Origin: Polycladidibacter stylochi
GTDB taxonomy: Bacteria > Pseudomonadota > Alphaproteobacteria > Rhizobiales > Stappiaceae
DNA length: 64,000 nucleotides
Assembly: GCF_001562055.1 (NCBI RefSeq)
Contig: NZ_LLWE01000027.1
Location: 62,001 to 126,000 of the forward strand
Direction of reading: 5' to 3'
Made by a program: the position numbers and the translations under genes. Each line of letters starts with the position of its first letter. Within the stretch, counting starts at the first letter, position 1. Under the pieces are notes generated by a model, which saw only the letters and a program-made list of their open reading frames with translations, did no database searches and was not told the origin of the DNA. Shown piece after piece: positions 2,998 to 17,880 of the stretch.

Positions 2998-3073
2998 TGG
3001 TGCCGCTGATAGGACTTGAACCTACGACCCACGCATTACGAATGCGTTGCTCTACCATCTGAGCTACAGCGGC
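2998..3073 (-). tRNA. tRNA-Thr (anticodon CGU)
   Basis: On the minus strand a full cloverleaf folds: acceptor GCCGCTG/CAGCGGC, D-arm GCTC...GAGC, anticodon stem ACGCA/TGCGT with loop TTCGTAA (anticodon CGT), and T-arm with GGTTCAAGTCC. The 3' CCA is encoded (TGG at 2998-3000 on the plus strand). It decodes ACG. It stands alone, downstream of the HemY gene and in the same direction. Confidence 0.97.
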
Positions 3074-8999: not shown

Positions 9000-10115
9000 G
9001 TGCTCACTGTCCTTGGGATCGAAACCAGTTGTGACGAGACCGCCGCGGCCGTTGTGCGGCTTGATGAAAACGGGCAGGGAGAGATTCTCTCCAACATTAT
9101 TCATTCGCAAATTAGCGACCATGAAGCCTTTGGAGGTGTGGTGCCGGAAATCGCGGCCCGCGCCCATATTGCTATTTTGGATAGCCTGATAAAAAAAGCT
9201 ATGACTGAGGCTGGTCTTGCCTATGATGATTTGAGCGCGATTGCCGCCACCGCCGGTCCCGGCCTGATTGGCGGGGTGATCGTGGGCTTGATGAGTGCCA
9301 AGGCCATTGCCATGGCCGCCAACAAGCCGCTATTGGCTATTAACCACCTTGAGGGCCACGCCTTAACCGCCCGGCTGACAAATAAAGTGGCGTTTCCCTA
9401 TTTATTGCTGCTCGTTTCAGGTGGACACACCCAGTTCTTACTGGTGAAGGGCATGGGCGATTATGAGCGCCTTGGCACCACAATCGACGATGCTATTGGT
9501 GAAGCATTTGACAAAACCGCCAAGATGCTGGGGCTTTCCTACCCCGGCGGGCCTGCGGTGGAAAAAGCCGCTGCCCAAGGGGATGCCAAAGCCTACCCTT
9601 TACCCCGGCCACTGCTCGACCGACCGGGCCTTGATATGTCGTTTGCCGGGCTCAAAACCGCTGTGCGCACCGCCGCACTAAAAGAAGAGCCGGTGAGTGA
9701 TTTGGTCGTCAATAACCTGTGTGCCTCGTTTCAGGCGGCGGTTGCCGATGTGATTGGCCAGCGCAGCGCTCGCGCCTTTGCGCTGTTTCAAGAGCGTTTC
9801 CCGCAAACACCGGCGAAAATGGTGATTGCTGGCGGGGTGGCTGCCAACAACGCTATCCGCAGCCGCTTGCAAGAGGTTGCCGCCGCACACAATGGCGAGC
9901 TTGTGGCTCCGCCCCATAAACTGTGTACTGATAACGCGGCCATGATCGCATGGGCAGGTATTGAACAGTTGCGCCACCAGCAGGCGCAAAACGGCACAAT
10001 TCCAAGCGAGAACGGGGTTGATGATGATATGCAGGTAAGCCCGCGCCCGCGCTGGCCACTGGACCAGCTGTCGCAAAGTGTTTTCGGCTCGGGCAAAAAG
10101 GGTGCGAAGGTTTAG
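9000..10115 (+). CDS. tsaD: tRNA N6-adenosine threonylcarbamoyltransferase
   Basis: 371 residues. TsaD transfers threonylcarbamoyl to A37 of ANN-decoding tRNAs with TsaB/TsaE. Family marks: [14 protein letters not shown] at the N-terminus, the metal-binding NHLEGH motif (His116, His120), SGGHTQ (140-145) and the [10 protein letters not shown] phosphate loop. The start is GTG at 9000, placed 6 bases after a strong AAGGAG; the overlapping ATG at 8998 is in the wrong frame. It is divergent from hemC, a common alphaproteobacterial arrangement. Confidence 0.97.
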
Positions 10116-10376
10116 CCTATTCCCTTGAGAAAACCACAAGTACGCGCTGAGGCAATGCATGATTTTTGGGTTGGTTAGAGTTCAAGACAGGATATGAACC
10201 CCCAACCTTTATAGTACGGTTTGCCTAGCGTTTTTAGCTATAGCCGGTGCTCTCGGTCGTTGGCAGGGCAACCGTTTGGCTTTTATAAAGCGCTGGGCGG
10301 GTAAAATACATGATTGACATTGCGCGCAAGTGCGGGCAAAAAACTCCTGTTTTCAATTTAAGGAACTTTGAGACTT

Positions 10377-10502
10377 ATGTTCTCTCGCGCACACAACATG
10401 CCAGCTTATAAAGCGCCCAAGCAATTGGGGTGCATGGCTTGTGCAGCGTCCATGACAATGAAAACAACATTCACGACAACGACGACTAAGACCACCGTTT
10501 AA
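10377..10502 (+). CDS. Threonine-rich leader peptide of asd (candidate attenuator)
   Basis: A 41-codon ORF ends 107 bases before asd. Its last 16 residues, MTMKTTFTTTTTKTTV, hold 10 threonines, five of them consecutive, spelled with ACA/ACG/ACT/ACC. AAGGA at 10361-10365 could serve the ATG at 10377; translation could also begin at the internal ATG at 10452 or 10458. Threonine is a product of the pathway that Asd feeds, so ribosome stalling at these codons would report charged tRNA-Thr, as ThrL does in enteric bacteria. The following RNA has mutually exclusive stems. Function is inferred; the composition is directly visible. Confidence 0.7.
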   Translation: MFSRAHNMPAYKAPKQLGCMACAASMTMKTTFTTTTTKTTV

Positions 10503-10509
10503 GGTGCCT

Positions 10510-10600
10510 CTCTTTCCCGCGCGTCTCCCCGGGATGGAGGGCGCTAAAGAGTGAACCGGGTGCCGCAGCCTCCGGGGAACTTACGGGGGAGACGAAGAGG
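10510..10600 (+). promoter_or_regulatory. Competing RNA stems between leader peptide and asd
   Basis: Two stems that share bases can form. The proximal hairpin pairs CTCTTT (10510-10515) with AAAGAG (10546-10551), GCGC with GCGC (10519-10522 / 10541-10544) and CTCC with GGAG (10525-10528 / 10536-10539). The long-range stem pairs CGTCTCCCC (10522-10530) with GGGGAGACG (10586-10594), ending directly before the asd ribosome site AAGAGG (10595-10600). No U-run follows, so control of asd translation is likelier than termination. Confidence 0.5.
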
Positions 10601-10609
10601 ACATAACCG

Positions 10610-11641
10610 ATGGGTTTTAAGGTTGCTATTGCAGGGGCTACCGGTAACGTGGGCCGGGAGATGCTGGATATTCTTGCCGAGCGCGGGTTTCCGGCTGATG
10701 AAGTTGTGCCGCTGGCCTCGCGCCGCTCGCAAGGGCTGGATATTTCTTACGGCGACAAGACACTTAAAGTGCAAGCGCTGGAAAACTATGACTTTTCCGA
10801 TACCGATATTTGTTTGATGTCTGCTGGCGGTTCCATTGCCAAAGAATGGGCACCCAAAATCGGTAAGCAGGGCTGTGTGGTCATCGATAACTCCTCCGCA
10901 TGGCGTTATGATGCCGAGGTGCCGCTGATTGTGCCGGAAGTAAACCCGGACGATATTGCCGATTTCACCAAGAAAAACATTATCGCCAACCCGAACTGCT
11001 CGACAGCCCAGCTGGTTGTGGCCCTTAAGCCGATTCACGAAGCAGCCGGTATCAAGCGTATTGTTGTCTCCACTTACCAGTCGGTTTCCGGCGGTGGTAA
11101 AGAAGCCATGGAAGAGCTTTTTGACCAGACCCGTGCGGTGTTCGTCAACGATCCGATTGAGCCGAAAAAGTTCACCAAGCGTATTGCCTTTAACGTAATC
11201 CCGCACATCGATGTGTTTATGGAAGACGGCTACACCAAAGAAGAATGGAAGGTGCTGGCTGAAACCAAAAAAATGCTAGACCCAACAATTAAGGTAAGCT
11301 GTACCGCTGTACGTGTACCGGTATTTGTGGGTCATGCGGAAAGCGTGAACATTGAGATGGAAAACCCGCTGAGCGCCGAAGAAACCCGCGATTTGCTGCG
11401 CGAAGCGCCCGGTTGCCTTGTGGTTGATAAGCACGAAGACGGCGGTTACGTCACCCCTTACGAGTGTGCCGGTGAAGATGCCACCTACATCTCGCGGATT
11501 CGCGAAGATGCGACCGTTGAAAACGGTTTGAACCTGTGGGTGGTTTCCGACAATCTGCGCAAGGGAGCTGCCCTGAACACCGTTCAGATTGCCGAATTGC
11601 TGGTGAATGGCAAACACATTACGCCAAAATCTGCGGCGTAA
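10610..11641 (+). CDS. asd: Aspartate-semialdehyde dehydrogenase
   Basis: 343 residues. It reduces aspartyl phosphate to aspartate semialdehyde, the branch point to lysine/diaminopimelate, methionine and threonine. N-terminal NADP-binding VAIAGATGNVG, SAGGSIAKEW, and catalytic Cys130 in ANPNCSTAQL are present. It starts at ATG 10610 with AGAGG 9 bases upstream, and is preceded by the threonine-rich leader described separately. It is monocistronic: a strong hairpin terminator follows within 40 bases. Confidence 0.97.
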   Translation: MGFKVAIAGATGNVGREMLDILAERGFPADEVVPLASRRSQGLDISYGDKTLKVQALENYDFSDTDICLMSAGGSIAKEWAPKIGKQGCVVIDNSSAWRYDAEVPLIVPEVNPDDIADFTKKNIIANPNCSTAQLVVALKPIHEAAGIKRIVVSTYQSVSGGGKEAMEELFDQTRAVFVNDPIEPKKFTKRIAFNVIPHIDVFMEDGYTKEEWKVLAETKKMLDPTIKVSCTAVRVPVFVGHAESVNIEMENPLSAEETRDLLREAPGCLVVDKHEDGGYVTPYECAGEDATYISRIREDATVENGLNLWVVSDNLRKGAALNTVQIAELLVNGKHITPKSAA

Positions 11642-11698: not shown

Positions 11699-12007
11699 TT
11701 AAGTAATGCTCAAATTCAGCTTACGGCCAACAGCCTGTGCTGCGCGGCTTAGCGTTGAGAGGGTAACACTTGTATTATTGGGATCGAGTAGGCGGTCAAG
11801 TTGGGAGCGACTCGTTTGCAAGCGCTCAGCCATAGCAGATTTTGTGATGTTTTGCTTCGCCATTGCTTGCTCTAGCTCGAAAGCGATAACCCGCTTTATT
11901 GCAACCTCACGAGCTTCTTCCAATAGATTTTCTTCTTGCAAAAAATCATCAAAACTTGAGCCAAGATGAGCAGATTCGACAGTTTTGTTTTGTTGGTTAT
12001 GGGTCAT
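11699..12007 (-). CDS. higA: XRE-type antitoxin (HigA-like)
   Basis: 102 residues. The C-terminal half is a helix-turn-helix (KSAMAERLQTSRSQLDRLLD) followed by a LSTLSRAAQAVGRKLNL tail typical of HigA partners of Gp49-type toxins. It should neutralise the upstream toxin and repress the shared promoter. It starts one base after the toxin stop, so the two are translated together, with the toxin gene first as in higBA. Confidence 0.85.
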   Translation of the reverse strand: MTHNQQNKTVESAHLGSSFDDFLQEENLLEEAREVAIKRVIAFELEQAMAKQNITKSAMAERLQTSRSQLDRLLDPNNTSVTLSTLSRAAQAVGRKLNLSIT

Positions 12008-12008
12008 A

Positions 12009-12353
12009 TCAAAGCTCTTTCATTCTTTTCACTGCGGTTTCTATTTCCTTTTGTGGCGTTTTTTCGCTTTTCTTTTCAAACCCATGTAACAGCACGAGAT
12101 AGCTGTCATAAATACAAAAGAAAACGCGTGCGATGCGTCCCCCCTCCAAATGGCAACGAATTTCCCATAGACCTTTATGTCCTTTAATCGCACGACATAA
12201 CGGCATTCCTAATGGCCACCCATATTCCGCCGTTTTAATATCCATACCAATGGCTTTACGGTCTCTTACATCCAGACTTAATAACCAGTCACGGACAGGT
12301 TCCCTAGCATTTGCTGTTTTGTAAAACCTAGCAGAGAGTTTTTTATGGCTCAT
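12009..12353 (-). CDS. higB: RelE/HigB-type toxin, phage Gp49-like family
   Basis: 114 residues matching the Gp49-like (PF05973) RelE-superfamily toxins: the pattern PVRDWLLSLD, LWEIRCHLEGGRIARVFFCI, VLLHGFEKKSEKTP, then a C-terminal KRMKEL. Such toxins are ribosome-dependent mRNA endonucleases. The Lys-rich C-terminal KKSEKTPQKEIETA segment is the usual signature. It is first gene of the pair; a palindromic operator lies 10 bases upstream of the start. Confidence 0.87.
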   Translation of the reverse strand: MSHKKLSARFYKTANAREPVRDWLLSLDVRDRKAIGMDIKTAEYGWPLGMPLCRAIKGHKGLWEIRCHLEGGRIARVFFCIYDSYLVLLHGFEKKSEKTPQKEIETAVKRMKEL

Positions 12354-17659: not shown

Positions 17660-17809
17660 ATGTTCTTTTTAGCTGGCATAAATGCTGGTGAGTGCGTCAC
17701 ACAAAGACGTGCGGGGATTAGGAACCCCTTCCAACCAAAAGGCGTTTCCACCACGCCACGTTTCCCTGTGAGCGTGGTTTTCTATGGTCGGGCGAATGAG
17801 AGCACGTAA
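17660..17809 (+). CDS. Ash/Icd-like phage peptide, possibly truncated
   Basis: 49 residues (ATG 17660, TAA 17807-17809). The pattern FFLAGINAGECVTQRRAGIR, then NPFQPKGV, then RFPVSVVFYGRANEST, matches the Ash / 'host cell division inhibitor Icd-like' family of P4-type phages and islands. Reading on in the same frame past the TAA gives VRRFLLGGSS and a second stop, which resembles the usual continuation of that family. The TAA may therefore be a nonsense mutation, or the reading frame may be conserved mainly because it overlaps a structured RNA. Weak ribosome site. Confidence 0.55.
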   Translation: MFFLAGINAGECVTQRRAGIRNPFQPKGVSTTPRFPVSVVFYGRANEST

Positions 17810-17880
17810 GTGCGCCGCTTCCTTTTGGGCGGTAGTTCCTAATCTTGTTTTGCCCGATCACCAAAGATTAGGAACCTTTG
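17713..17880 (+). ncRNA. C4-like antisense RNA region
   Basis: GATTAGGAACC occurs at 17716-17726 and again at 17866-17876, while its complement GTTCCTAATC lies between them at 17835-17844. GGTCGGGC (17787-17794) can also pair with GCCCGATC (17852-17859). The second copy of GATTAGGAACC lies in the leader of the next gene, about 38 bases before its start. This geometry (RNA segments complementary to a downstream leader, inside an Ash-type ORF) is that of the phage P4/P1 C4 immunity RNA. Ends and promoter are not determined. Confidence 0.45.

Follow-up and report, generated by a model that had tools for sequence, protein, structure and literature searches.

Ribosome profiling (Ribo-seq) of Sinorhizobium meliloti led in 2023 to the description of SEP5, a small protein whose codons include six for Thr and three for Lys, that was put forward as a possible leader peptide, for which translation was demonstrated and which was termed 'conserved only in Sinorhizobium' (PMC10117765). 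The gene whose 5' UTR holds the SEP5 ORF was called 'aspartate dehydrogenase' and is, we infer, asd. Given that the open reading frames (ORFs) ahead of asd at three Sinorhizobium loci (L183, L187 and L193) end in KTTAKTTTKTV, and thus with six Thr and three Lys, SEP5 is very likely the same element as these asd leaders, as judged from sequence.

Here we describe a Thr-rich ORF upstream of asd, the gene for aspartate-semialdehyde dehydrogenase, in a stretch of 64,000 nucleotides (nt) from Polycladidibacter stylochi, referred to below as the window. Comparison with related genomes showed that asd is accompanied by a conserved element, which comprises the ORF with its Thr/Lys tail and stop codon and, within the family, a hairpin just past the stop. 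The assignment of this element to the class of Thr(+Lys) leader-peptide attenuators of asd is well supported by these comparisons, and we consider it probable that the ORF encodes a leader peptide through which the availability of charged tRNA-Thr, and probably of tRNA-Lys, is reported to the asd mRNA by way of a proposed switch between two RNA pairings, denoted AT and b:d. The order-wide spread, the evidence for coding and the RNA anatomy are new, the core idea being already in print for Sinorhizobium. The original prediction, made from the letters of the window, stated that a Thr leader on an alphaproteobacterial asd gene was not known to be described; this holds only in part, as SEP5 of S. 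meliloti had been proposed as just such a leader (PMC10117765).

A conserved Thr/Lys-rich ORF ahead of asd

Asd feeds the synthesis of lysine, diaminopimelate (for the cell wall), methionine and threonine, and for most diaminopimelate-producing bacteria it is essential. The features at the start of the locus are:

10314..10319, plus strand: TTGACA, -35-like, of the putative asd leader transcript; unchanged in 16/16 genus genomes
10335-10338, plus strand: GGCA near the promoter; unchanged in 16/16 genus genomes
10360..10364, plus strand: AAGGA, possible leader ribosome binding site, proposed from the sequence, 12 nt upstream of the ATG at 10377
10377..10502, plus strand: leader peptide ORF of 41 codons (translation, genus/family conservation)
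10452..10499, plus strand: Thr/Lys-rich last 16 codons (10 Thr, 2 Lys; in-frame Thr enrichment)
10610..11641, plus strand: asd, aspartate-semialdehyde dehydrogenase, the presumed controlled gene (NF011456, TIGR01296, PF01118/PF02774)

The leader ORF translates to MFSRAHNMPAYKAPKQLGCMACAASMTMKTTFTTTTTKTTV followed by the stop codon, which bears out the predicted 41 codons with 10 Thr among the last 16 and five of these in a row. Between the end of its stop at 10502 and the start of asd at 10610 lies the predicted spacer of 107 nt, and the identity of asd was confirmed by matches to NF011456 and TIGR01296 above cut-off, in addition to those to PF01118 and PF02774. The encoded Asd shares 93% identity with its counterpart in Pseudovibrio hongkongensis (the source genome measures 3.68 Mb). 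The start had been left uncertain between 10377, 10452 and 10458. Since an in-frame start 39-44 codons upstream of the leader stop occurs in 16/16 genus genomes and one at 14-16 codons in only 5/16, position 10377 is the likeliest start, and the two alternatives are not conserved. The TTGACA element sits around 60 nt upstream of 10377, and a TTGAC was found 60-320 nt upstream of the leader stop in 87/87 family genomes, where around 0.25 per region would be expected by chance. Despite this perfect TTGACA no usual -10 box for the leader promoter was clear by eye, and a consensus scan of 10116-10700 yielded no sigma-70 promoters.

To describe the spread of the element we counted ORFs that end 55-175 nt upstream of asd and carry at least five Thr in their last 16 codons. 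This rule recovered a leader in 16/16 genomes of the genus and in 71/71 of the rest of the family (all such genomes at hand), in 46/88 sampled genomes from the rest of the order (37/69 and 9/19) and in 4/40 from the rest of the class. Only 23/3920 dinucleotide shuffles and 0/196 reverse complements of the surveyed regions complied, and the Thr-rich ORF end before asd is, on these counts, not a product of chance. The order sample (88 of the 140 non-family genomes with an Asd match) was drawn mostly by rank with one or two genomes per family, one of them (G136) entering after its match to the RNA model described below, and the class sample comprised 40 of 121 genomes; both are uneven samples. 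As the rule misses leaders with four Thr, like those in Agrobacterium, the count for the order is too low. One locus (L104) is truncated by a contig end and its match may be due to chance. A Thr-rich tail, in some cases with just four Thr, was present at all 80 named asd loci examined (including L214 and L219), which are the best 80 of 586 relatives and therefore near kin; they include Pseudovibrio, Roseibium, Stappia, Pannonibacter, Rhizobium, Agrobacterium, Sinorhizobium, Mesorhizobium and Ochrobactrum/Brucella. The proposed check that the Thr run and the stop be conserved while other codons vary thus holds in the family and in about half of the sampled remainder of the order.

The first half of the ORF differs strongly among genera, and what is kept is the Thr/Lys tail and the position of the stop. 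The gene upstream, tsaD (9000-10115, plus strand), was found in 1/16 genus loci and in 0/80 named loci (within a 700-nt flank); since it is not conserved, the leader belongs with asd. A link via the tRNA modification t6A (N6-threonylcarbamoyladenosine), which is made from threonine, with TsaD using a substrate derived from it, and occurs on Thr and Lys tRNAs, was dropped because of these same counts for tsaD. By the five-Thr rule no Thr-rich ORF end was found in around 1 kb upstream of hom and thrC of the same genome, and one located 939 nt upstream of its lysC was not accepted as a sister leader. A tRNA-Thr gene with anticodon CGU (2998-3073, minus strand) lies 7 kb ahead of the leader, which is probably a coincidence.

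The evidence for coding was derived from 123 of 128 rule-positive loci, in which the stop lies 90-155 nt before asd and a Thr occurs within the last six residues; this set also underlies the complementarity and T-stretch tests and those over clusters of sequences. The fraction of Thr in the last 16 codons was 0.474 in frame, compared to 0.010 and 0.033 when the same stretch is read in either shifted frame. Conservation at codon positions 1, 2 and 3 was 0.91, 0.77 and 0.68 in the genus and 0.79, 0.72 and 0.58 in the family, the third position being the lowest in both, and all four Thr codons are in use within the family (ACC 379, ACG 142, ACA 119, ACT 49). The ratio of nonsynonymous to synonymous change (pN/pS), computed without the last three codons, was 0.48 in g1 (shifted frames 0.64 and 2.06) and 0.51 in g6 (shifted frames 1.02 and 1.11), these being the best-sampled of the genera, which are labelled g1 to g7. 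The locus thus has a conserved short coding ORF ahead of a biosynthetic gene, and a cluster of codons for pathway products, Thr and Lys, at its end, as is expected for an amino-acid attenuator. The fraction of Lys was 0.159 in the tail and 0.038 in the preceding 16 codons, and because of this enrichment the sensor probably reads Lys besides Thr, both of which are made from the product of Asd.

Two explanations that do without a sensor in cis have to be weighed against these data. That the ORF is not a gene at all, being a chance ORF or part of an AC-rich unstructured spacer, might be suggested by its shortness, its low complexity and the lack of any Pfam or NCBIfam match for its product, but considering the restriction of Thr to one frame, its rarity in the shuffles and the translation of the S. 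meliloti counterpart (PMC10117765) this is hardly credible. That it encodes a small protein acting in trans has precedents, as in S. meliloti the trp leader peptide functions in trans (PMC7298713) and tagged SEP5 (SEP5-SPA) was present in the soluble fraction (PMC10117765). Conservation, however, is confined to the tail and the stop position while the first half of the peptide varies, and the position relative to asd is kept, so that we regard a function in trans as very unlikely.

RNA structures between the leader stop and asd

Five features were assigned to the RNA around and past the leader stop:

10493..10506, plus strand: stop-codon hairpin S (1:2-like), CACC 10493-10496 pairing with GGTG 10503-10506
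10503..10545, plus strand: AT hairpin (2:3-like), 10503-10508 with 10540-10545, 10510-10512 with 10537-10539 and 10515-10518 with 10531-10534
10522..10530, plus strand: segment b, in the AT loop or a local hairpin; 9-base complement of 10586-10594
10586..10594, plus strand: segment d (GGGGAGACG), adjoining the asd Shine-Dalgarno sequence; can pair with segment b
10596..10600, plus strand: AGAGG, core of the asd Shine-Dalgarno sequence; in this genome a possible pairing partner of CCUCU 10507-10511

The conservation of these structures was followed in an alignment of 61 of the 77 distinct family sequences, which covers genera g1, g4, g5 and g6 and leaves out g2, g3 and g7. RNAalifold recovered a single structure from it, a hairpin just past the stop with 12 pairs and 2 two-sided changes. 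In a slightly extended form of AT, 95.7% of the cells were paired and two-sided changes occurred in 3 of 14 pairs. Its covariation score of 0.105 exceeded that of all 500 shuffles (0.091 +/- 0.004) and of every slid version of the hairpin (the next best scoring 0.099), and the covariation of AT may be called modest. The b:d pairing is kept to 99.5%, yet the segments are nearly invariant in the family. When the complementarity within each sequence was compared to that of permuted combinations (41 sequences, 36 clusters), b:d reached a z of -4.1 and the AT strands one of -3.6, although many window pairs were scanned and the z values are therefore only guides. The strongest z of the scan (-4.3) came from the Thr run, which pairs weakly (-3.1 kcal) to the Shine-Dalgarno region of asd; we cannot explain this value.

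Hairpin S showed 96.9% paired cells in the 61 family sequences and no compensatory changes. Together with the CTCTCTTT that follows, it could constitute a weak intrinsic terminator in the genus, which a ribosome at the Thr codons would open, as in transcription attenuation of the classical type. In line with this, at least five T within 8 nt occur shortly past hairpin S in 15/16 genus genomes. Its stem, however, counts just 4-5 pairs and the T run is interrupted by a C; a scan of 10116-10700 for intrinsic terminators found none, and such a T stretch was present anywhere in the spacer in only 2/71 family members outside the genus. Among the 123 spacers 26 contained at least five T in 8 nt, 15 of which represent the stretch after the weak hairpin in the genus. 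A weak terminator is therefore improbable and a classical one unlikely. The original prediction had invoked attenuation as in enteric ThrL: the Thr leader found support, but the intrinsic terminator that precedes the structural gene in the enteric thr system has no convincing equivalent at this locus, and Lys is enriched along with Thr.

An Rfam search of the region with E values up to 5 returned no match to a Thr leader and gave no support for a known riboswitch at the leader. The one match it gave, to a DnaX-like frameshift element, with 13 bits against a cut-off of 35, was sub-threshold and was rejected. The asd RNA motif (RF01732) had no match in the window at its gathering score.

An RNA covariance model built on the family sequences matched the source genome once, at asd. 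Applied to 61 order genomes, it gave six matches, five of which lay directly upstream of asd, two within the family and three in other families (E 0.001-0.07). The sixth, in genome G370 (E 0.013), was judged false, as asd is absent from the 1858 bases examined. The spacers in genus g2 are longer (129 nt in L090, 146 in L094 and 141 in L101), and that of L090 lacks the AT and b:d pairs; the RNA part in g2 may differ while the peptide is kept.

Proposed mechanism and its energetics

The locus can be read as a four-segment layout that consists of the CACC at the ORF end, the post-stop segment starting with GGUGCC, its AT partner, and d, which adjoins the ribosome site. Under a shortage of Thr or Lys, the ribosome would stall in the tail and cover the ORF end, by which hairpin S would be blocked. 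The 5' strand of AT would be left free, AT (10503-10545) would form during transcription, b would be kept from d and asd would be expressed. When both amino acids are ample, the ribosome would reach the stop codon and cover the 5' strand of AT; with AT lost, b would pair with d next to the Shine-Dalgarno sequence of asd, whose expression would fall. In this genome the CCUCU could additionally pair with the Shine-Dalgarno sequence itself. As the search for an intrinsic terminator yielded none that convinces, translation initiation or Rho-dependent termination is the most likely point of output.

Part of the folding data agrees with such a switch. The nascent RNA of the window folded with an AT-type hairpin when ending at 10560 or 10584, and with the Shine-Dalgarno sequence paired when ending at 10602, at which point d and the Shine-Dalgarno sequence are present. 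Over 36 clusters (spacers longer than 130 nt dropped) the mean number of AT-type pairs was 4.8 in nascent RNA reaching to -32 nt and 0.9 once the RNA was complete and the segment left free. The opening energies do not prove the switch. In the genus (n=15) the asd site took 6.4 kcal to open at equilibrium, 3.6 with AT forced and about 4.3-4.4, thus also fairly open, with the post-stop segment masked; in the 46 other sequences the values (3.6, 3.1 and 2.8 kcal) hardly differed. In the region from -20 to +12, forcing AT made the site easier to open than masking in 38 of 61 sequences and harder in 8, with a mean of around 0.8 kcal. Sequestration of the Shine-Dalgarno sequence was strong in most tested genus sequences, in g3, g4 and g5 and in part of g7.

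A considerable number of results weigh against the proposed sensor and switch. At the level of the peptide, the five-Thr rule finds no leader in 42/88 genomes of the order beyond the family, and pN/pS in g7 (0.93 in 8 sequences, shifted frames 0.92 and 1.46) gives no support for coding. At the level of the RNA, the number of two-sided pairs in AT was equalled in 119/500 shuffles. The Shine-Dalgarno pairing lacks covariation across the family and was matched by 542/2000 equally good permutations (59 sequences); a general sequestration of the Shine-Dalgarno sequence by the post-stop segment was rejected for these reasons. The RNA model found just 3 non-family genomes and missed most peptide-bearing genomes of the order. 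Outside the family the RNA part is less certain than the peptide, and the modelled AT may not be general.

The energies add to these objections. The nascent RNA of the window ending at 10570 folds otherwise, and forcing AT costs a mean of 10.0 kcal in 15 genus sequences compared to 0.9 in the 46 others; being that far from the best full-length fold, AT could act in the genus only as a kinetic trap. Masking the post-stop segment lowers the opening cost (by more than 0.3 kcal) in 19/43 clusters and raises it in 13, and in the genus it opens the asd site, which is the wrong sign unless the OFF fold follows the release of the ribosome. With AT forced rather than the segment masked, the stretch from -14 to +2 was easier to open in 16/61 sequences and harder in 24/61, and that from -28 to +2 was easier in 24 and harder in 31 of 61.

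Taken together, b:d is kept and AT, with which it would compete, covaries modestly, yet the energies do not describe a uniform switch. Given these mixed results the output could be Rho-dependent or of another kind. Stalling or termination on the leader ORF might then act on the 107-nt spacer, through Rho-dependent termination or decay of the mRNA there, and not on translation initiation. This would fit the empty terminator scan and the fact that the effects on site opening, a few clades apart, are weak or inconsistent, and Rho-dependent termination has been proposed for the terminator-less cys leaders of Mycobacterium (PMC1262725). The spacer, however, is strongly structured, and we consider this alternative rather unlikely. 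The fullest form of the leader-peptide reading is an ancient, order-wide and terminator-less attenuator of a single gene at a branch point in the Hyphomicrobiales, in which Thr and Lys would be sensed by the position of the ribosome and an antisequestering hairpin would act on the translation of asd. We advance it tentatively, as a possibility that is on balance doubtful. If true, the supply of diaminopimelate/lysine and that of threonine would share one sensor in this order.

Neighbouring genes and relation to known systems

Just downstream of asd, Pfam matches identify a helix-turn-helix protein (11699-12007, minus strand) and a Gp49-like protein (12009-12353, minus strand), which we take to resemble a toxin-antitoxin pair of the HigB/HigA type. 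Further on, Rfam detected a C4 antisense RNA, which is a phage-type regulator, at 17780-17865 (plus strand; 51.6 bits against a gathering score of 45).

A conserved asd sensor in Rhizobium, Agrobacterium, Sinorhizobium, Roseibium and their relatives, a large assembly of soil and marine bacteria, would adjust threonine and lysine synthesis at an early step and imply a regulatory logic of the aspartate pathway that is unlike the enteric one. A remark on a single genus would thereby become a testable rule for a whole order, and nature would provide an example of a leader peptide that controls its gene with no evident terminator. We recognised no further mention of an asd leader peptide among the literature matches listed. 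The abstract of Vitreschak et al. (2004) reportedly names alphaproteobacterial attenuators for the branched-chain amino acids and not asd. In the main text of the paper on alphaproteobacterial motifs asd is not mentioned (PMC1273637).

The resemblance to enteric ThrL lies in the run of Thr codons near the stop of a short leader ORF that precedes a gene of the aspartate/threonine pathway. It differs in that the gene is asd and not thrABC, that the second amino acid is Lys and not Ile, and that a convincing terminator is lacking. The asd RNA motif RF01732 is likewise a structured RNA named after asd, but it is listed for the Lactobacillales (PMC2864571), and the term 'leader peptide' is absent from the paper that describes it. 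Within the same bacterial order, leader-peptide control is represented by rnTrpL/peTrpL of S. meliloti, which unlike the asd leader is a tryptophan attenuator that also yields a small RNA (PMC10117765, PMC7298713). The Cys leader peptides of Mycobacterium share a run of cognate codons near the stop and the lack of an obvious terminator, and no conserved hairpin usable as such was reported in the sections consulted, but they concern another amino acid, phylum and gene (PMC1262725). Closest of all remains SEP5: the ORF in the window is of the same kind and in the same place, but counts 10 Thr and 2 Lys among the 16 codons at its end, and where the sections consulted on SEP5 offer no mechanism or RNA structure (PMC10117765), the present comparison extends the peptide to many families of the order and adds a hairpin in one of them.
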